Shown here: one piece after another, positions 8,311 through 16,664 of the stretch | Layout of the letters: every line of letters starts with the position of its first letter | Position numbering within the stretch: position 1 is the first letter of the stretch | DNA from: Kineosporia succinea | GTDB taxonomy: Bacteria > Actinomycetota > Actinomycetes > Actinomycetales > Kineosporiaceae | DNA: 64,000 nt | Direction: 5' to 3' | Assembly: GCF_030811555.1 (NCBI RefSeq) | Contig: NZ_JAUSQZ010000001.1 | Span: 7,437,241 to 7,501,240, forward strand | Program-made: the position numbers and the translations under genes | The notes under the pieces: generated by a model | The model's database searches: none | What the model saw: the letters and a program-made list of their open reading frames with translations, nothing else | Told to the model about the DNA's origin: nothing

Positions 8311-9447
8311 CTAAGCACCCGACCCGGCACTGAGGCCCGGGGCCCGCAGCCGCGGCCCGGTCCCGACGGGAACCCCCTCATCGAGCAGCCGCCGGTACAG
8401 CGCCAGGTGGGACTGCGCCGACGCCTCCCAGGTGTGCGCCGACGCCAACGCGGAGCCGCGGTGGGTGCGGCCGGCGTCGGCCGGGCCCACCAGGTCGGAC
8501 AGCAGCGCCTCCCCCAGGGACGCCGCGTCACCCGCGAACCGCACCGCGTCACGGAACACCTCACGCAGCACCGGCAGGTCGCGCACCACCACCGGGCGGC
8601 GCGCGGCCAGGGCCTCCATCGCCGCCAGCCCGAAGCCCTCGGCGGTGCTCGGGAACGCGAACGCCGCGCACGAGGCGACCAGGCCGGGCAGGTCGTCGTC
8701 CGGCACCGGCCCCAGAACCGTCATGCGCACCCCCAGTTCCGCCACCAGCTCGTCGACCTGCGCGCGGTAGTCCCGGTAGTCGAACAGCGTCTCGCCGCCG
8801 GCCACCAGCAACTGCACCCCGGGCCGCGCGGTCTGCACCGCGGCCATGGCCCGCACCAGGTCGAGCGTGCCCTTGCGGGGCTCGATGCCCCCGACCGCCA
8901 GCACGAACTCCCCGAACCGCGAGGTCCACGACCCGTCGGGCACCGCGGTGGCGAAGCGTCGCGCGTCCACCCCGTTCGGGATCACCGTGGCCCCGATGCC
9001 CCACCCCTGCTCCAGCTCCCCGGCCACCGACGCCGAGACACACACGTGCGCAACCGGTTCGGTGATCGCCCGCTCGTGACAGGCCGCCAGCTGCGGCGTG
9101 GTGAAGTGGTCGAGGTGGTGCACCGTGCGCACCCGGCCGGGCACGGCGTTCGCACTGATGCAGTCCTGCGCGTGCACCACGTCGTAGTCGCCCTCGAAGG
9201 CCTCGCCCAGCACCGCGATCGAACGCAGGATCCGCTCCCCCACCGATTCCCCCTCCAGCGTGGGGAAGGGCACGGCCCGCACCCGCACCGCCTCCTCGAC
9301 CGGGCGGAAGAACGTCTCGTCGCCGCCGCGCCCCAGGGTCCACACGGTGACGTCCTGCCCCGCCCGCGCGAGAGCCTCGGCCAGGGCCAGGGTGTGCACC
9401 ACGCCCCCGCGCGGCCGCGTCGAATAGGTGAGCAGGCTGATCCGCAT
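8311..9447 (-). CDS. MSMEG_0565-family glycosyltransferase
   Basis: 378-aa GT-B fold, GT4-like glycosyltransferase. It begins MRISLLTYSTRPRGGVVHTLALAEAL, the typical start of the MSMEG_0565 family, and has the donor-site region GGIEPRKGTLDLVRAM and the FAFPSTAEGFGLAAMEALA motif with the nucleotide-sugar-binding acidic residue. This ATG is preferred over an upstream in-frame codon because it matches family N-termini and has GGGGAG just before it. It is divergent from the flavoprotein gene and shares the 127-bp intergenic region with the Nit1C operon. This is the usual arrangement of the family, though its acceptor is unknown. Confidence 0.9.
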   Translation of the reverse strand: MRISLLTYSTRPRGGVVHTLALAEALARAGQDVTVWTLGRGGDETFFRPVEEAVRVRAVPFPTLEGESVGERILRSIAVLGEAFEGDYDVVHAQDCISANAVPGRVRTVHHLDHFTTPQLAACHERAITEPVAHVCVSASVAGELEQGWGIGATVIPNGVDARRFATAVPDGSWTSRFGEFVLAVGGIEPRKGTLDLVRAMAAVQTARPGVQLLVAGGETLFDYRDYRAQVDELVAELGVRMTVLGPVPDDDLPGLVASCAAFAFPSTAEGFGLAAMEALAARRPVVVRDLPVLREVFRDAVRFAGDAASLGEALLSDLVGPADAGRTHRGSALASAHTWEASAQSHLALYRRLLDEGVPVGTGPRLRAPGLSAGSGA

Positions 9448-9574
9448 CTCCCCAGCCTGCTGCGAAAAGCGTTTCTCGGCAAGCCTTGTCACAGAAAGCC
9501 AAACGTTACGTCCGAAATCCAGAAGTGTTCCGGATGAAACACCCCGGCAATCGCAGCTGCCTTGACTGGACGGC

Positions 9575-10870
9575 ATGAAGGCAAAGGACGACCTCTCGGG
9601 TCACCTGCTCGCCGGTGGGCTCGACGGCCGGCACGTTCCGGTCGCGGTCATCGGCGGCGGCCAGGCGGGCCTCGCCGCCAGCTACTGCCTCTCGGCCGCG
9701 AAGGTCGAGCACGTCGTTCTCGAGCGTCACCGGATCGGGTTCGAGTGGTCCGAAAGGCGCTGGGACAGCTTCTCTCTCGTCACCCCGAACTACCAGTGCC
9801 TGCTGCCCGGCCACGAGTACGCGGCCGGGGATCCCGACGGCTTCATGGTGCGCGACGAGATCGTCGACTACCTGCGCGACTACCGGCACCGGTTCGACCC
9901 GCCGCTGCACGAGGGCGTCGACGTCACCCGGCTCGGCCACGACGGCCACCGGTTCACCCTGACCACGAACCGGGGCCGGTTCTTCGCCTCCCAGGTGGTC
10001 GTCGCGACCGGCGCCTACCACCGGCCACGGATCCCGAGATTCGCCGAACGCCTGCCCGGCAGCATCATTCAGATCCACTCGGCCGACTACAAGAACCCGC
10101 GGCAACTGCCCGAGGGGGCCACGCTCGTGGTCGGCACCGGCCAGTCGGGCGCCCAGATCGCCGAGGACCTGCACCTGGCCGGGCGCACCGTGCACCTGGC
10201 CACCGGCAACGCACCCCGGGTGGCCCGGTTCTACCGCGGCCGCGACTGCATGACCTGGCTCGACGAGATCGGCCACTACACCAAGGGAATCACCGAGTTC
10301 GCCGACCAGGAGGCCACGCGTCACAAGGTCAACCACTACGTGACCGGCCGCGACGGCGGGCGGGACCTCGACCTGCGCGCCTTCGCCCGTGACGGTATGC
10401 ACCTCTACGGCCGTCTCGCCGACATCACCGGCCCGGTGGCGCATTTCGCCGACGACCTGAGGAGCAACCTCGACGGGGCCGACGCGGTGATGGAGGGCAT
10501 CAAGGACCTGATCGACGCCCACATCGAGCGCGAGCACCTCGACCAGCCCACCGAAGAGCGCTACACACCCGTCTGGGAACCCGGCCACCACGTCCCCACG
10601 CAGGTCGACCTGACGAGAAGCGGCATCACGTCGGTGATCTGGTGCACCGGCTTCGACGCCGACTACCGCTGGGTCGACCTGCCCGTCTTCGACGGGCGCG
10701 GCTACCCCGCACACCACCGCGGTGTCACCAGCCGGCCCGGGCTCTACGTGCTCGGCCTGCCCTGGCAGTGGACCTGGGGTTCGGGCCGCTTCCGCGGGGT
10801 CGGCGAGGACGCCCGGTACCTGACCGAGCAGATCGTGCGGGCCACCCAGAGCACGCGGCGCGTGGCATGA
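9575..10870 (+). CDS. MSMEG_0569-family FAD-dependent oxidoreductase (NitH-like)
   Basis: 431-aa flavoprotein of the group B monooxygenase / MSMEG_0569 type. The FAD Rossmann motif VAVIGGGQAGLAASYCLS starts near residue 24 and a second dinucleotide (NADPH) motif VVGTGQSGAQIAEDLHL near residue 188. The C-terminus ends with YVLGLPWQWTWGSGRFRGVGEDA, a segment conserved in the family. It is the first gene of the Nit1C operon and its TGA overlaps the ATG of the amidohydrolase (ATGA). Nit1C clusters have been linked in the literature to growth on cyanide as nitrogen source and to nitrogen starvation; the flavoprotein's own reaction is not established. ATG start, weak ribosome binding site. Confidence 0.92.
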   Translation: MKAKDDLSGHLLAGGLDGRHVPVAVIGGGQAGLAASYCLSAAKVEHVVLERHRIGFEWSERRWDSFSLVTPNYQCLLPGHEYAAGDPDGFMVRDEIVDYLRDYRHRFDPPLHEGVDVTRLGHDGHRFTLTTNRGRFFASQVVVATGAYHRPRIPRFAERLPGSIIQIHSADYKNPRQLPEGATLVVGTGQSGAQIAEDLHLAGRTVHLATGNAPRVARFYRGRDCMTWLDEIGHYTKGITEFADQEATRHKVNHYVTGRDGGRDLDLRAFARDGMHLYGRLADITGPVAHFADDLRSNLDGADAVMEGIKDLIDAHIEREHLDQPTEERYTPVWEPGHHVPTQVDLTRSGITSVIWCTGFDADYRWVDLPVFDGRGYPAHHRGVTSRPGLYVLGLPWQWTWGSGRFRGVGEDARYLTEQIVRATQSTRRVA

Positions 10871-11679
10871 TCCACTGCGACGCGCACCGGCACCTGGGCG
10901 TGCTGCCCGAATACCCGTTCTACGGCGGGCCCCCGATCCGGGCCGACGTCACCGCCCGGGCCACGATCCGCGAGTTGCTCAAGGATCTCGACGCGGAGAA
11001 CACCGAACGCGCCCTGGTCATCCCCAACTACGGTGTGCCGCAACCCGATCTGGCGTTCAGCTTCAACGAGCTGGTGGTGGAGGCGGCCCAGACCGACGAA
11101 CGCGTCCGGGCCGGACTCTGGGTGTCGGCCCGACCGGAGGACGCCGAGCGCACGGCCCAGGCCCTGAAACTGGCCGGCGAACCCGGTGTGAAGGCCCTGA
11201 AGCTGAGCTTCCTGCTCGGCGGCAGCGTCGACGACACCACCCCCGGACTCGAGGCCATCTTCCGGGCGGCCCGCCGGCACAACCTGGTCGTGCACGTGCA
11301 CACCAGCCCGGGCGGCGCCAGTGACATCGACGAGATCGGCAAGCTCGTCGAGCGGTACGCCGACGACGTGAAGCTGCACCTGGTGCACCTCGGCGGCGGC
11401 ATGAGCGGCCACATGAAACTGATCGGCGGCCGCTTCTTCGACTGGATCGACCAGGGCAAGCAGGTCTACACCGACCTGTCCTGGGCGATCGGGTTCGCAC
11501 CACGCTGGCTGGCGCGGGAGATCTCCCGGCGCGGCCTCGGCCACGACCGGGTGCTCTTCGCCAGCGACCAGCCCTGGGGTGACTTCGAGGGTGAATATGC
11601 CCGCCTCAGAGCTGGGTTCGGGGACGGTGAACTGGCCGCCCTCGCCCTGCACGGAACGTTCGAGAAACTCTACGACTAG
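10867..11679 (+). CDS. Amidohydrolase-2-like metal-dependent hydrolase
   Basis: 270-aa TIM-barrel protein of the amidohydrolase superfamily. The start MIHCDAHRH carries the metal-binding HxxxH-like cluster, VVHVHTSPGG gives a mid-barrel His pair, LHLVHLGGG a further His and VLFASDQPWGDF the Asp near the end, in the order expected for amidohydrolase-2 enzymes. The ATG overlaps the preceding stop. Its place inside the Nit1C operon implies it acts on the same pathway intermediate, possibly hydrolysing an amide or decarboxylating a product; the substrate is unknown. Confidence 0.85.
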   Translation: MIHCDAHRHLGVLPEYPFYGGPPIRADVTARATIRELLKDLDAENTERALVIPNYGVPQPDLAFSFNELVVEAAQTDERVRAGLWVSARPEDAERTAQALKLAGEPGVKALKLSFLLGGSVDDTTPGLEAIFRAARRHNLVVHVHTSPGGASDIDEIGKLVERYADDVKLHLVHLGGGMSGHMKLIGGRFFDWIDQGKQVYTDLSWAIGFAPRWLAREISRRGLGHDRVLFASDQPWGDFEGEYARLRAGFGDGELAALALHGTFEKLYD

Positions 11680-11703: not shown

Positions 11704-12216
11704 ATGACCGACCTGACCGAGCTCGAGCAGAAGTCCCTCGAGGAGATCCCCCACCCCTCCCTGCCCGAGGGGTCCAGCATCTACGGCGGCACCAAGGTCT
11801 TCCCCGACTACCAGGCCGAGAACGGCGAGAGCTACTTCACCCTCGTGCACGGCATCGCCCACGAGTCGTCGGTGAGCTTCGTCGCGATCCTGCAGGCCAC
11901 CCGGGCGCTGCGCAAAGGCTTCGAGTCGGCCATCTACTTCTACGGCCCGGGCTCGCTGAACGCCCTGGCCACGCGCGGTTTCCCGACCACCGGCACGAGC
12001 GCCTTCCCGGGCGAGCACAACATCAACTCCTCCCTGGCCACGTTCATCAAGGAGGGCGGCAAGGTCTACTGCTGCCGGTTCGGGCTGTCGCTGCACGGCG
12101 CCCGTGAGGAAGACCTGATCGAGGGCGTCATCCCCACGCACCCCCTCGACGTGCAGGACGCGCTGATCCACTACGCGCGCAAGGGCGCCATCATCAACTC
12201 GACCTACATGATCTGA
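11704..12216 (+). CDS. MSMEG_0572/Sll0783-family nitrogen-starvation protein (NitB-like)
   Basis: 170-aa member of the MSMEG_0572/Sll0783 family, a signature gene of Nit1C clusters induced by nitrogen limitation in cyanobacteria and mycobacteria. Recognisable pieces are GGTKVFPDYQAENGESYFTLVHGIAHESSVSFVAILQATRALRKGF, YFYGPGSLN, and the end KGAIINSTYMI. The family looks like a DsrE-like alpha/beta fold with a conserved Cys pair region (VYCCRFG), but its biochemical role is unknown. ATG start; it follows the amidohydrolase by 24 bp and precedes the radical SAM gene by 9 bp, so it is co-transcribed. Confidence 0.92.
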   Translation: MTDLTELEQKSLEEIPHPSLPEGSSIYGGTKVFPDYQAENGESYFTLVHGIAHESSVSFVAILQATRALRKGFESAIYFYGPGSLNALATRGFPTTGTSAFPGEHNINSSLATFIKEGGKVYCCRFGLSLHGAREEDLIEGVIPTHPLDVQDALIHYARKGAIINSTYMI

Positions 12217-12225
12217 GGTCTGCTC

Positions 12226-13278
12226 ATGGACACCGTCACGAGAGTGAACCTCGCCGTGCGCGGGGTGCGGGTCGACGCCCCGGTGCGGCGCAGCAAGGGC
12301 GCCGGGCCCAGCGACGACGGGCACCTGCTGCTCGACGGCGAGAACGCGGCCCTGCCGATCGTCGCCGACAGCCCGTACGTGATCCGTCAGGGCCGGGTCT
12401 ACGAGGGCCGCATCGACCTCGGCCTGAGCGTGAACACCGTGGCCCGGCCGAAGTTCTACGACCTCACCACCGCTGACGGTGTCCCCTACGAGAAGATCGC
12501 CCTGCTGCATGGGAAGGACGTGCTGGCCACCACGGTCGTGCAGACCTGCATCCGCTACGACGAACCCCAGCGGTGCCGGTTCTGCGCGATCGAGGAGTCG
12601 CTGAAGCAGGGCTCGACCATCGCCGCGAAGACGCCCGCCCAGCTGGCCGAGGTGGCCGAGGCCGCGGTCCGGCTGGACGGCGTGCGGCAGATGGTCATGA
12701 CCACGGGCACCACCACCGGCCCGGACCGCGGCGCACGCAACCTGGTGCGCTCGGTCCGGGCGGTGCTGGCCGCGGTGCCGGGCCTGCCGATCCAGGTCCA
12801 GATCGAGCCACCGCGTGACCTTTCCGTGCTGCAGGACCTGAAGGACGCCGGGGCCGAGTCGATCGGTATCCACGTCGAGAGCATGGACGACGACCTCCGC
12901 CGGCGATGGATGCCGGGCAAGGGCAGCGTGCCGATGGCCGAGTACGAGGCGGCCTGGGACGAGGCGGTGCGGATCTTCGGCCGTAACAAGGTGTCCACGT
13001 ATCTGCTGATCGGCCTGGGCGAGACCCCCGACGAGCTCGTGGCCGGGGCGAGATCGCTGATCGAGCGGGGCGTCTACCCGTTCGTGGTGCCGATGCGCCC
13101 GATGGCGGGCACCCTCGCCCGCCGCGACGGCGCGACCACCGCCCCCGCGTCCGTCGTCGCCGACGTCACCACCCGCGTGGGCGCCCTGCTGCGCGAGGCC
13201 GGGATGGCCGGTGACGACCAGGGCGCCGGCTGCGCGGCCTGCGGCGCGTGCAGTGCCCTGAAGGCGGCGGGCGGATGA
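12226..13278 (+). CDS. MSMEG_0568-family radical SAM protein (NitD-like)
   Basis: 350-aa radical SAM enzyme of the MSMEG_0568 family. The cluster-binding cysteines are C108, C117 and C120 (CIRYDEPQRCRFC), a CX8CX2C spacing instead of the canonical CX3CX2C. The SAM-binding beta-barrel follows (VMTTGTTTGPDRGARN, QVQIEPP, YLLIGLGETPDEL). The C-terminus holds a second cluster of close cysteines (GCAACGAC), probably an auxiliary iron-sulfur or metal site. The substrate is unknown; radical chemistry beside a nitrilase suggests formation or breakdown of a nitrile-containing small molecule (inference). The last codons overlap the next gene (ATGA). Confidence 0.93.
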   Translation: MDTVTRVNLAVRGVRVDAPVRRSKGAGPSDDGHLLLDGENAALPIVADSPYVIRQGRVYEGRIDLGLSVNTVARPKFYDLTTADGVPYEKIALLHGKDVLATTVVQTCIRYDEPQRCRFCAIEESLKQGSTIAAKTPAQLAEVAEAAVRLDGVRQMVMTTGTTTGPDRGARNLVRSVRAVLAAVPGLPIQVQIEPPRDLSVLQDLKDAGAESIGIHVESMDDDLRRRWMPGKGSVPMAEYEAAWDEAVRIFGRNKVSTYLLIGLGETPDELVAGARSLIERGVYPFVVPMRPMAGTLARRDGATTAPASVVADVTTRVGALLREAGMAGDDQGAGCAACGACSALKAAGG

Positions 13279-14702
13279 CGTCCCTGGTCGAGGAGCTGGG
13301 CGCAGCTCTGCTGCACGACCTCTCGGCGCCGCGGCGCACGCCCCGGTTCTTCGTCGAGGACGCGGACAGCACGGCTCTCGCGGCGTACCACCGGCTGCGC
13401 CGTGAGGAGTTCGTGGAGGCCCAGGGTCTGTTCGAGGGCAGCGACCTCGACGAGCACGACGCCGACGAGCGCACCGTGGTGCTGGTGGCCCGGTCCGCCG
13501 ACGGCACCGTGCTCGGCGGGGTGCGGCTCGGGCCCGCCACCACCGGCCCCGATGTCGGCTGGTGGCAGGGTGGGCGCCTGGTCACCCGCGGAAGTGCCGG
13601 GGCCGGGGCGGCTCTCGTGCGCGCGGCCTGCGCCCGGGCCGAGGCGATGGGCGTGCTGCGCTTCGACGCGACCGTGCAGCCGCGCTACCGGTCGTTCTTC
13701 GCCAAGCTCGGCTGGGACTACGTGCGCCCGGTCGTCCTCAGCGGCCACCCGCACGAGCTGATGCGCTGGCCGATCGGCCGGATCGAGGCGCTGGCCTCGG
13801 CCACCAAGAAGGATCTCGGCGCCCTGCTCGCCCCGTTCGACGCGGTGGGCGGGACGGGTTTCGTCGGTGACGACGGTGCTCCCGTGCCGGGCTCCGACCT
13901 GGTCGCCGCCTGCGACGCGATCCTGCCCTCGATGGTCGAGCGTGACCCGGAGTGGGCCGGATGGTGTTCCGTGCTGGTCAATCTCAACGACCTGGCCGCG
14001 ATGGGGGCCGAGCCGGTGGCCCTGCTCGACGCGGTCGGGGCCCGGGACGCCTCGTTCGCCGCACGCGTCCTTCACGGTCTGCGAAGGGCGAGCCAGGCCT
14101 ACGGGGTGCCGCTGATCGGCGGTCACACCCAGCTCGGCGTCCCGGCCGCGCTGAGCGTGACCGCCCTGGGACGCACCAACCACCCGGTGCCCGGCGGCGG
14201 CGGCCGGCCCGGTCACGACATCCGGCTCACCGTCGACACCGGAGGTGCCTGGCGGCCGGGATACGCCGGGCGGCAGTGGGACTCGACCTCGCACCGCACC
14301 ACCGCCGAGCTCCGGGCCATGACCGGCACGGTCGCCCGCACCCGCCCGGCGGCGGCCAAGGACGTCTCGATGGCCGGGATCGTGGGCACCCTGGGCATGC
14401 TGGCCGAGGCCAGTGGCTGTGCGGCCGTGCTCGATGTCGCGGCCGTACCGAAACCTCCGCACGCCACCACCGGCGACTGGCTCACCTGCTTCCCGGGCTT
14501 CGGGATGCTGACCGCCGGCGATGCGGGCGCCGCCGGCGATGCGGGCGCCGCGGGCGCCGGGCCCGCCGTCACCGCGGTCTGCGGCGAGCTCACCACCGGC
14601 ACCGGAGTGCAGCTGCGCTGGCCCGACGGTGAACTCACCACCGCCCTGACCGGGGGCGTGACCGGCCTCGGGCCCTCGAAACCAACGGGAGACACACGAT
14701 GA
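13275..14702 (+). CDS. GNAT acetyltransferase - AIR synthase-like fusion (MSMEG_0567 type; NitE/NitF)
   Basis: 475-aa two-domain protein. Residues about 20-150 form a GNAT N-acetyltransferase (RFFVEDADSTALAAYHRLRREEF, VLGGVRLGP, GAALVRAACARAEAMG, YRSFFAKLGW), matching the MSMEG_0567 N-terminal family. Residues about 160-475 form an AIR-synthase (PurM)-related domain with NLNDLAAMGAEPVALLDAVG and LIGGHTQLGVP, the ATP-binding PurM signature seen in the Sll0787 family. Other Nit1C clusters carry the two as separate genes; the fused form is typical of actinobacteria. An Ala/Gly linker GDAGAAGDAGAAGAG near residue 415 comes from an 18-bp duplication. ATG overlaps the radical SAM stop; the stop overlaps the nitrilase start. 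Confidence 0.93.
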   Translation: MTSLVEELGAALLHDLSAPRRTPRFFVEDADSTALAAYHRLRREEFVEAQGLFEGSDLDEHDADERTVVLVARSADGTVLGGVRLGPATTGPDVGWWQGGRLVTRGSAGAGAALVRAACARAEAMGVLRFDATVQPRYRSFFAKLGWDYVRPVVLSGHPHELMRWPIGRIEALASATKKDLGALLAPFDAVGGTGFVGDDGAPVPGSDLVAACDAILPSMVERDPEWAGWCSVLVNLNDLAAMGAEPVALLDAVGARDASFAARVLHGLRRASQAYGVPLIGGHTQLGVPAALSVTALGRTNHPVPGGGGRPGHDIRLTVDTGGAWRPGYAGRQWDSTSHRTTAELRAMTGTVARTRPAAAKDVSMAGIVGTLGMLAEASGCAAVLDVAAVPKPPHATTGDWLTCFPGFGMLTAGDAGAAGDAGAAGAGPAVTAVCGELTTGTGVQLRWPDGELTTALTGGVTGLGPSKPTGDTR

Positions 14703-15538
14703 GCACCCTCACGCTGGGCGTCGTCTCGGCGCCGTTCGACCGCGACCTGGAGGCCGACTTCGCCCGGGTCGCGGGTCTGATCGAGCAGGCCCGGGCCCAG
14801 GGGGTGCAGCTGCTCGCCCTGCCCGAGGCCACGCTCGGCGGCTACCTCAGCGACCTGCGCGGAAGTGCCCCGCCGCCGCCCGCGTTCCGGGTGGACGGTC
14901 CCGAGATCGCCCGGCTCGCCGCGCTGGCCGGGGAGATGGTGGTGTGCGCCGGTTACTGCGAGCTCGGCGAGAACGGCGAGGTCTACAACAGCGTGGTCTG
15001 CGTCGACGGTTCCGGGGTGCTGGGCAACCACCGCAAGGTGCATCAGCCGCTGCGCGAGGACGCCCACTACACGGCCGGTTCCGGCTTCCGCGCGTTCGAC
15101 ACCCCGGTCGGCCGGATCGGGATGGTCATCTGCTACGACAAGGCGTTCCCGGAGTCGGCGCGCTCGCTCGCGCTCGACGGGGCGCAGATCGTGGTGTGCG
15201 TGTCGGCCTGGCCCGGCAGCCGCACCGACGCCCCCGAGAACCTCGAGGACGACCGCTGGAAGCACCGTTTCGACATCTTCGACGCCGCGCGGGCCCTGGA
15301 GAACCAGATCGTCTGGCTGTCGGCCAACCAGAGCGGCACCTTCGGGTCGCTGCGGTTCGTGGCCAGCTCGAAGATCGTCGGCCCGGGTGGGGACGTGCTG
15401 GCCGGCACCGGGGTCGGTGAGGGGATGGCGGTGGTCTCCCTGGACGTGGAGGGTTCCCTGGCCTCGGCGCGCCGGGCCATGGGGCACCTGCGCGACCGCC
15501 GTCCGGCCGCGTACGCCCGGCTCGAACCGGTCGGCTGA
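14699..15538 (+). CDS. nitC: Nit1C nitrilase, catalytic triad intact (NitC-like)
   Basis: 279-aa carbon-nitrogen hydrolase of the Nit1 branch (Sll0784/MSMEG_0566 type). The full triad is present: Glu43 in LLALPEATLGGYLSD, Lys113 in GNHRKVHQP and Cys145 in MVICYDKAFPESAR; the ANQSG segment near residue 210 is also conserved. Family knowledge: these enzymes hydrolyse nitriles or cyanide-derived adducts to acid plus ammonia, and NitC is needed for cyanide assimilation in several Nit1C strains. The ATG overlaps the stop of the fusion gene (ATGA). A paralog follows 3 bp after its stop. Confidence 0.93.
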   Translation: MSTLTLGVVSAPFDRDLEADFARVAGLIEQARAQGVQLLALPEATLGGYLSDLRGSAPPPPAFRVDGPEIARLAALAGEMVVCAGYCELGENGEVYNSVVCVDGSGVLGNHRKVHQPLREDAHYTAGSGFRAFDTPVGRIGMVICYDKAFPESARSLALDGAQIVVCVSAWPGSRTDAPENLEDDRWKHRFDIFDAARALENQIVWLSANQSGTFGSLRFVASSKIVGPGGDVLAGTGVGEGMAVVSLDVEGSLASARRAMGHLRDRRPAAYARLEPVG

Positions 15539-15541
15539 GCG

Positions 15542-16372
15542 ATGGGGACGGGGGTCACCATCGCCTCGGCGGCCGCGGGTTTCGGCCGTGACCTGGAGTT
15601 CGACCTGGCCCGGGTGCGCACGCTGATCGAGCAGGCCCGCAAGGCCGGTGCCGACCTGCTCGTGCTGCCCGACGCCGCGCTCGGCGGGTACCTGGCCGAC
15701 CTGCGCAACCCGGACACGGACACGCTGCCCCCGGCCCTGGAGCCCGACCACGAGCTGATCGGGCGGGTCGCGCGGGCCGCGGCCGGGATGGTCGTGTGCG
15801 TCGGCTACTGCGAGCTGGGTGACGACGGGCGGCGGTACAACAGCGCGGTCTGCGTCAGCGGTGACGGCGTGCTCGGGCGTCACCGCAAGGTGCACCTGCC
15901 CCGGGGCGAGGAGAAGGCCTACGCGCCCGGTGAGGGGTTCAGCGCGTTCGACACCCCGGCCGGGCGGATCGGGATGCTCATCGACTACGACAAGACCTTT
16001 CCCGAGTCGGCCCGGTCCCTGGCCCTGGACGGCGCCGAGGTCGTGGCCTGCCTGTCGGCCTGGCCGACCAACATCAGCAACCGGGCGCCGCGCATGAGCG
16101 ACGACCGCCAGTCGCGCCTGTTCGACCTGTACGACCGCTCCCGGGCGGCCGAGAACCAGGTGGTGCTGGCCTCGGCCAACCAGACCGGCTCGCTCGGCGG
16201 GATGCGCTTCCTCGGCCAGGCCAAGGTGGTCGGCCCGGGCGGCGACATCCTGGCCCGCACCTGGGCCAAGGCCGGGCTGGCGGTGGCCACGCTCGACGTC
16301 GGGGCCGAGATCGCGGCCGCCCGGCGGGTGCTCGACCACCTCTCCGAACGCCGCCCGCACACCTACCGCTAG
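15542..16372 (+). CDS. Second Nit1C nitrilase paralog with degraded triad (probable pseudoenzyme)
   Basis: 276-aa nitrilase-fold protein, clearly paralogous to the gene just upstream (shared GRDLEFDLARVRTLIEQAR, VCVGYCELG, FDTPAGRIGM, YDKTFPESARSLALDGAE). The catalytic Glu is Asp44 (LPDAALGGYL) and the catalytic Cys is Asp148 (MLIDYDKTFP); only Lys116 (GRHRKVHLP) survives. Without the nucleophile the usual thioimidate chemistry cannot occur. The frame is intact and codon bias normal, so it is kept as protein: it may form hetero-oligomers with the active copy, bind the nitrile, or catalyse something else. ATG starts 3 bp after the nitC stop, so it is coupled. Confidence 0.92.
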   Translation: MGTGVTIASAAAGFGRDLEFDLARVRTLIEQARKAGADLLVLPDAALGGYLADLRNPDTDTLPPALEPDHELIGRVARAAAGMVVCVGYCELGDDGRRYNSAVCVSGDGVLGRHRKVHLPRGEEKAYAPGEGFSAFDTPAGRIGMLIDYDKTFPESARSLALDGAEVVACLSAWPTNISNRAPRMSDDRQSRLFDLYDRSRAAENQVVLASANQTGSLGGMRFLGQAKVVGPGGDILARTWAKAGLAVATLDVGAEIAAARRVLDHLSERRPHTYR

Positions 16373-16382
16373 GACGGATCCG

Positions 16383-16664
16383 TTGCCCGAGATGTACTTC
16401 CACGTCACCTGGCCCGACGGCACTGCCCAGAGCTGCTACTCGCCGTCGCTGGTGATCGAGGACTTCCTGACGCCCGGCCGGAGCTACCCGGTGGCCGAGT
16501 TCGTGCGGCTCAGCGACGAGGCCCTGACCATCGCCTCCGACCGGGTGCGGGCGAAGTTCGGCTTCGCCTGCACCAGCGCGGCGGCGACCCGTTCGGCCAT
16601 TGCCGACCGCGCCCGCTCACACGACGGGGGCGAGGTCACCGTGGTCGGTTTCGGCCGCGCCTGA
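16383..16664 (+). CDS. MSMEG_0570-family nitrogen starvation response protein (NitG-like)
   Basis: 93-aa small protein of the MSMEG_0570 family, beginning MPEMYFHVTWPDG, which matches the family's MPEMxF start. For that reason the TTG at 16383 (AGGACGG about 8 nt upstream) is chosen rather than the ATG three codons later. It has further family text FLTPGRSYPVAEFVRLSDEAL. Function unknown; it is the last gene of the Nit1C operon, 10 bp after the second nitrilase. Its 3' end overlaps the convergent MdaB-like gene by 48 bp. Confidence 0.9.
   Translation: MPEMYFHVTWPDGTAQSCYSPSLVIEDFLTPGRSYPVAEFVRLSDEALTIASDRVRAKFGFACTSAAATRSAIADRARSHDGGEVTVVGFGRA

Follow-up and report, generated by a model that had tools for sequence, protein, structure and literature searches.

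The window analysed here is a stretch of 64 000 nucleotides of the Kineosporia succinea contig NZ_JAUSQZ010000001.1 (positions 7,437,241 to 7,501,240). It carries two adjacent carbon–nitrogen (CN) hydrolase genes on the forward strand, named here nit1 (14699–15538) and nit2 (15542–16372), and nit2 lacks the catalytic Cys by which the nitrilase superfamily is defined. Nit2 is a pseudoenzyme branch of the CN-hydrolases, fixed beside an intact twin across several actinobacterial families within a known gene cluster in its actinobacterial form. Its existence is confirmed, it is conserved widely and selection acts on it; its molecular role is what we infer. With modest confidence, we favour a functional Cys-less paralogue (pseudonitrilase) that binds a ligand without nitrilase-type turnover and either works with nit1, as its partner or subunit, or holds that ligand for the nitrogen-starvation pathway of the cluster.

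The proteins are 279 (nit1) and 276 (nit2) amino acids long and both frames are intact. They are paralogues, as an earlier note on this DNA had claimed: they share 56% identity over 271 aligned columns and both match the CN_hydrolase family PF00795 (139.5 bits for nit1 and 123.9 bits for nit2; gathering cut-off 23.2). The catalytic residues and codons given in that note were found in place. In nit1, they are E43 (14825–14827), K113 (15035–15037) and C145 (TGC, 15131–15133); in nit2, D44 (15671–15673), K116 (15887–15889) and D148 (GAC, 15983–15985). A second catalytic Glu, which the note did not mention, is retained in both proteins (E120, 15056–15058, in nit1 and E123, 15908–15910, in nit2). 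The Glu-Lys-(Glu)-Cys set is complete in nit1 (E-K-E-C) and not in nit2 (D-K-E-D), which is a CN_hydrolase member by fold and descent and not by its catalytic set. A Cys was found at the aligned position in all five further CN-hydrolase matches of this genome (8.07 Mb, one contig), so the replacement of the Cys is particular to nit2. The nit2 frame opens as the note had described: its ATG follows the nit1 TGA after a gap of 3 bases. The nit1 start and the stop of the preceding gene, a GNAT–AIRS fusion, overlap by four bases. This spacing makes co-translation across the GNAT–AIRS/nit1/nit2 junctions likely.

Whole-genome sampling covered the Actinomycetota, and relatives were collected in two ways. 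For the scan set, one genome per species was scanned with the peptide patterns GML[IV]D[YF]DK and RAAENQV[VW]; 472 relatives were obtained and the best 80 were analysed. The first pattern includes the Asp, and the 80 scan loci alone therefore cannot prove that the Asp is invariant. To avoid this bias, a second set was anchored on the cluster gene MSMEG_0572, independently of nit2. MSMEG_0572 was found in 19 of 396 genomes of the phylum and in 60 of 394 genomes of the class (the draws overlap). The 81 MSMEG_0572 places outside the window with flanking sequence and six nit-bearing loci of relatives together gave 87 loci. Loci L016, L027 and L028 and a stretch of 1000 bases of genome G005 (L198) were left out of the analysis.

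The best 80 of the 472 relatives are all Actinomycetota; they come from 18 named genera and one record with no genus name, and span seven families. Going upstream from nit2 on its own strand, the first cluster gene detected is nit1 in 80/80 of these loci; in 75 of 79, no more than 60 bases separate the nit1 stop from the nit2 codon at which the alignment begins. The recurrence as a linked pair across genera, which the earlier note had proposed to check, was thus found, and a local oddity of this genome was rejected as an explanation. Within the genus, five of six genomes (window included) have a D..K..D protein; the other four proteins are 87–89% identical to that of the window, and genome G005 has none. 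At the 81 anchored loci, nit1 and nit2 were found together in 30, nit1 alone in 15, nit2 alone in none and neither in 36, i.e. nit2 is present at 30 of the 45 nit1 loci. The corresponding counts for the 87 loci are 35, 16, 0 and 36; some of the 36 empty loci stop at a contig edge or are stand-alone MSMEG_0572 copies.

The 394 class genomes were also searched with a nit2 profile (E ≤ 1e-45; matches of at least 422 bits were called nit2 and those of at most 374 bits nit1). Matches were obtained in 49 genomes. Nit2 was found in 33 and nit1 in 48 (both in 32, nit1 alone in 16 and nit2 alone in one, G470). Nit1 and MSMEG_0572 are both present in 32 of the 33 nit2-bearing genomes, and MSMEG_0572 is present in 48/48 nit1 genomes; 12 of the 60 MSMEG_0572 genomes have neither nit1 nor nit2. 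A single family (f106) provides 15 of the 16 nit1-only genomes. The orphan nit2 of G470 (L200:9542-10402) is an open frame with D-K-E-D and ends four bases before an aldose 1-epimerase frame. Searches of the G470 genome for nit1, MSMEG_0572 and the cluster radical SAM gene found none of them. A stable orphan-nit2 lineage was considered and rejected: of five genomes of the family to which G470 belongs, two have any match, and the orphan is found in G470 only.

Residues were counted in a pooled set of 131 nit1 and 116 nit2 sequences, in which at least five genomes are counted twice (three Kineosporia and the contigs of L045 and L066). The nucleophile position is Cys in 131/131 nit1 and Asp in 116/116 nit2. 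At the general-base position, nit2 has D in 108 sequences, G in 6, H in 1 and Q in 1. The claim that Asp replaces both the Cys and the Glu therefore stands without exception for the Cys; for the Glu it does not, as G, Q or H is found in 8/116. Common ancestry inflates such conservation counts; position 44, of the same ancestry, has nonetheless drifted. The L067 nit1, whose match is split in three pieces, was excluded from residue counts and from the analysis of selection. In the scan set (window included), nit1 is E-K-E-C in 80/80, and nit2 is D-K-E-D in 80/81 and H-K-E-D in 1/81, with the Lys and the second Glu in 81/81. All 51 nit1 of the 87-locus set are E-K-E-C. Its 35 nit2 have the Asp at the nucleophile position (35/35), the Lys (35/35), the second Glu (34/35) and, at the first Glu position, D (28), G (6) or Q (1). 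Among the 30 anchored nit2, which are free of the pattern bias, the sets are DKED (22), GKED (6), DKDD (1) and QKED (1), with Asp at the nucleophile position in 30/30. Given this drift at position 44, the nitrilase general base is dispensable in nit2, whereas Asp148 and Lys116 are not replaced. The change from TGC to GAC takes two base changes, and no residue one step from GAC was seen at the nit2 nucleophile position.

Conservation extends beyond the catalytic positions. In the scan set, 150 columns are at least 98% conserved in nit2 vs 125 in nit1. Ten columns of the pooled set are at least 90% fixed to differing residues in the two proteins (nit1/nit2: E43/D44, C145/D148, A149/T152, W187/Q190, R190/L193, L200/A203, V221/L224, G238/W241, M261/L264 and D266/E269). 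Highly conserved residues specific to nit2 include T152, R181, Q190, L193 and K243, and C86 is invariant in nit2 (pooled set). Apart from such differences, nit2 has the same active-site motifs as nit1: LP.A.LGGY, HRKVH, YDK.FPE, SAWP, ENQ and NQ.G are invariant in 52 aligned sequences of the two proteins.

A phylogeny of 54 nit1, 38 nit2 and 5 outgroup rows (97 in all) was built by a quick method and has several long branches. Nit1, nit2 and the outgroups each take one change of label on it; support by the Shimodaira–Hasegawa-like approximate likelihood ratio test (SH-aLRT) is 89 for nit2 and 30 for nit1. On this tree, nit2 appears as one clade from one old duplication. An E-K-E-C protein of another class (L120), with no nit2 in the fetched locus, attaches at the base. 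At the columns where the nit1 and nit2 consensus differ, L120 is nit2-like in 31, nit1-like in 25 and neither in 41. As this basal protein retains the Glu and the Cys, descent from an E-K-E-C enzyme is most likely, with loss of the nit2 nucleophile after the duplication.

Ratios of non-synonymous to synonymous substitution rates (dN/dS) were calculated by the Nei–Gojobori method for 81 loci, between which the pairs are not independent. The medians are 0.196 for nit2 and 0.241 for nit1 (3161 pairs with dS of 0.15–1), and nit2 is the lower in 2457/3161 pairs. The dN alone is lower for nit2 than for nit1 in 3145/3240 pairs. This comparison of the paralogues, also proposed in the earlier note, gave no relaxed selection. 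Mean protein distances over 78 loci are 0.159 for MSMEG_0572, 0.274 for nit2, 0.290 for the radical SAM protein, 0.350 for nit1, 0.354 for AIRS and 0.357 for the glycosyltransferase. By the distances and the dN/dS values, nit2 is constrained like the core cluster proteins and is under purifying selection comparable to that on nit1. The description of nit2 as a conserved pseudo-nitrilase was thus borne out: it is linked to an apparently intact paralogue, recurs across genera and families and is under purifying selection. The note had listed three findings that would have spoken against it, and the results were the opposite of each: nit2 is not found only here, selection is not relaxed and no Cys was restored.

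AlphaFold2 gave confident predicted folds, with a predicted local distance difference test (pLDDT) score of 92.8 for nit2 and 91.7 for nit1. The 50 matches listed by Foldseek for the nit2 model are all CN-hydrolases (amidases and nitrilases), with template modelling (TM) scores of 0.73–0.87 by query length. For nit2, retention of the nitrilase fold is a confident prediction.

Nitrilases and amidases act through a covalent thioimidate or thioester intermediate, which needs a thiol. Since the thiol is absent from nit2, such an intermediate would not form and no substrate would be hydrolysed in the nitrilase way. The kept pocket, the invariant Lys–Asp pair and the strong selection suggest that nit2 binds a ligand and does not turn it over in the nitrilase manner; pocket and pair may hold the same ligand as nit1 or a related one. 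Nit2 would then serve nit1 as partner or subunit, or hold a ligand within the nitrogen-starvation pathway that the cluster encodes. Several observations weigh against this reading. Nit1 is not strictly required, since G470 has an intact nit2 without it, nor does nit1 strictly depend on nit2, which was not seen in 16 of the 48 nit1 genomes. In some arrangements, other genes sit between nit1 and nit2, which speaks against an obligate complex. The partial distance correlation between nit1 and nit2 (0.39 over the 78 loci) is the fifth of 15 gene pairs, after nit1–AIRS, AIRS–glycosyltransferase, nit1–glycosyltransferase and nit2–AIRS. Together with the orphan of G470 and the 16 nit1-only genomes, this lack of special coevolution also counts against an obligate complex. 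In the ten Kineosporia pairs, the closest of all, the nit2 dN/dS is lower than that of nit1 in four and higher in six, so nit2 is not clearly more constrained at short range. The full conservation of D148 also exceeds what a passive scaffold needs and fits a catalytic role too.

Such a role would make nit2 an enzyme with another chemistry, in which D148, with K116 and E123, could serve either as a general base or as a nucleophilic carboxylate towards a more activated substrate from the same pathway. We regard this, the main rival reading, as possible, although on balance we doubt it. D148 and K116 do not vary in the proteins examined, in contrast to the drifting position 44, which nitrilases need; the Asp lies two base changes from the Cys and has not drifted to the residues one step from GAC; nit2 has conserved residues of its own, such as T152 or K243; and an orphan nit2 exists. 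Against this, we know of no natural nitrilase-fold enzyme with an Asp at the nucleophile position. The more specific proposal, an active enzyme rebuilt around Asp148-Lys116-Glu123 that performs a missing step of the actinobacterial Nit1C/gpr pathway (described below), is slightly more tentative; if true, it would bring a non-thiol catalytic class into a superfamily thought to be Cys-dependent. The orphan copy, the lack of special nit1–nit2 coevolution and the nitrogen regulation of the operon reported in Mycobacterium smegmatis would also suit an independent, metabolite-binding sensor or regulator of the nitrogen-starvation response that does not work with nit1. This is unlikely, as nit2 is nearly always in the genome and the cluster of nit1 (32 of 33 genomes).

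The lost nucleophile and the 16 nit1 genomes without nit2 might suggest a duplicate decaying under relaxed selection. The conservation counts and the dN/dS values refuted this, and we consider it very improbable: nit2 dN/dS is 0.115–0.215 in the ten Kineosporia pairs, its dN is below that of nit1 in nearly all pairs, more of its columns are at least 98% conserved and the 80 scan loci extend across seven families. A sequencing or assembly error in the genome of the window was ruled out, and its probability is negligible, since the same residues are found in four further Kineosporia genomes and in many other genera. A functional Cys-less paralogue that binds a ligand without nitrilase-type turnover is the reading that we favour, and the nit1/nit2 pair offers a clean handle on the poorly understood pathway of the cluster.

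At helix positions 193, 194 and 197, nit1 proteins whose locus lacks nit2 depart from the others, mostly in one clade of 12 f106 rows. An interface adaptation of nit1 was considered and rejected: among the four other nit1-only rows, L193 and L167 show no change, L173 has only Q193 and L120 is a deep branch. These differences were not used as evidence.

The pair lies in a compact cluster that extends from a glycosyltransferase (8311) to MSMEG_0570 (16664). The MSMEG_0565 family glycosyltransferase (8311–9576, TIGR04047, 428.1 bits vs a cut-off of 259.85) is on the reverse strand and all the other genes are on the forward strand. They encode, in order, an MSMEG_0569 family flavin-dependent oxidoreductase (9575–10870, TIGR04046, 622.2 bits vs 498.35), an Amidohydro_2 protein (10867–11679, PF04909, 72.7 bits vs 26.4), an MSMEG_0572/Sll0783 family nitrogen starvation response protein (11704–12216, TIGR04044), an MSMEG_0568 family radical SAM protein (12226–13278, TIGR04043, 495.6 bits vs 303.7), the fusion of GNAT and an AIR-synthase-like (AIRS) protein (13248–14702, TIGR04045 and TIGR04050; the profile scan was run from 13275), nit1, nit2 and an MSMEG_0570 family nitrogen starvation response protein (16383–16664, TIGR04042, 119.2 bits vs 79.85). 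The MSMEG_0572 protein also has a DsrE-like match slightly below the Pfam cut-off (21.6 vs 22.7). The start of the Amidohydro_2 gene at 10867 was chosen; the open reading frame as listed opens at 10642. This gene has no NCBIfam match and is a frequent cluster member in related loci. An amidohydrolase is not among the classical Nit1C genes as described in the accessible text of PMC1199592.

In classical Nit1C there is just one nitrilase gene (Podar et al., 2005; PMC1199592, accessible text). The gene set of the window is of Nit1C type: TIGR04044, TIGR04043, TIGR04045, TIGR04050, TIGR04042 and TIGR04046 are above cut-off, with GNAT and AIRS in one fused gene; TIGR04049 (sll0787 AIRS) stays below its own cut-off in the window. 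The radical SAM, GNAT, AIRS and flavoprotein genes and two small uncharacterized families are common to both. The difference lies in the hydrolases. Where the described Nit1C has one subfamily-1 nitrilase (TIGR04048 type), the window has two CN-hydrolases of another branch, one of them without the nucleophile. Against the Nit6803 nitrilase profile TIGR04048 (cut-off 502.6), nit1 scores 43.3 and nit2 24.3 bits; the window thus has no subfamily-1 nitrilase, and nit1 and nit2 are both distinct from the Nit6803 enzyme of classical Nit1C. TIGR04048 gave no match in this genome at E ≤ 1e-60 and was above cut-off in none of the 394 class genomes, the two best scores (484 and 460 bits) being in genomes without MSMEG_0572. 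The earlier note had described tandem nitrilases in a Nit1C cluster that normally has one. The classical cluster does have one; the pair, however, replaces the TIGR04048 nitrilase rather than joining it and is common at nit1 loci. The top-scoring NCBIfam families for the pair are N-carbamoylputrescine amidase and an archaeal nitrilase, both far under their cut-offs (TIGR03381: 116 bits for nit1 and 104 bits for nit2 vs 410.25). AguB (N-carbamoylputrescine amidase) and the Pyrococcus amidase PH0642 are among the nearest families by profile, sequence and fold, but the profile scores are far under the AguB cut-off and the catalytic Cys is absent from nit2.

The cluster is an actinobacterial version of Nit1C, known in M. 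smegmatis as the gpr operon. There, MSMEG_0565–0572 is the GlnR-controlled gpr operon, and its deletion gives a peroxide sensitivity about the same as that of a glnR deletion in nitrogen-free medium (PMC6039565). According to the available text of that paper, all eight genes were verified as expressed in biofilms, the effect could not be assigned to single genes, and MSMEG_0566 is given as a putative aliphatic amidase with a possible part in nitrogen assimilation. Under nitrogen starvation, MSMEG_0566 is 8.94-fold and MSMEG_0571 48.04-fold higher in the wild-type than in a glnR deletion (PMC4222082). In nitrogen-limited continuous culture, they are up 2.96-fold and 4.06-fold, respectively (PMC4617892). 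A GlnR site is listed at MSMEG_0572 (PMC3662644).

Six window families are named after MSMEG_0565, 0567–0570 and 0572 and are above cut-off, and both clusters have two CN-hydrolases (in gpr 0571 and 0566, by the published annotation as far as available). The Kineosporia gene order differs from that of gpr and the amidohydrolase is added. Four loci of one family (L112, L113, L145 and L155) have the order 0572, nit1, 0570, 0569, 0568, 0567, nit2 (D-K-E-D), 0565, with 0570 not detected in L113 and L145. This order fits the MSMEG numbering, and by analogy MSMEG_0571 should be nit1 and MSMEG_0566 should be nit2. Gene order implies that MSMEG_0566 is the nit2 orthologue; if so, the label of nitrogen-releasing amidase is probably a misannotation: an active aliphatic amidase is expected to have the Cys nucleophile, which is Asp in every pooled nit2. 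The literature searched (mostly without subscription journals, and accessible in part) contains no mention of the missing nucleophile in MSMEG_0566, and no described nitrilase-superfamily pseudoenzyme was found in it. Nit2 resembles pseudoenzyme paralogues in general, in which a catalytic residue is lost, fold and selection are kept and the gene lies near an intact paralogue. The UGA of MSMEG_0571 has been proposed to be read as selenocysteine into the next genes (PMC6039565, accessible text). At this place of the window (15536–15541), the nit2 start comes 3 bases after the nit1 UGA, with no hint of a selenocysteine fusion.

Among plasmids, 43 records matched, and identities above 60% were found only in four Rhodococcus records. 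The cluster is carried by plasmid pN9T4-1 of Rhodococcus qingshengii N9T-4; of two genes labelled ‘carbon-nitrogen hydrolase family’ in it, the second is D-K-E-D. In other actinobacterial lineages (L115, L116, L118, L119 and L126–L128), MSMEG_0572 clusters were seen with amidohydrolase, radical SAM and AIRS-like genes and without a match to the CN-hydrolase profile. In f106, 12 loci (L129–L131, L133, L136, L138, L174 and L177–L181) have MSMEG_0572 copies 66–75% identical to that of the window; no further cluster gene was detected in the stretch examined (some are short), save an AIRS-like match in L129. MSMEG_0572 is present twice in seven of these f106 genomes. In nit2-less f106 clusters in which MSMEG_0569 was not detected, the place between nit1 and the glycosyltransferase is taken by another FAD-binding protein. 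Its frame was found in L134, L137 and L143, and the Pfam scan covered that of L143 (14118–15713).

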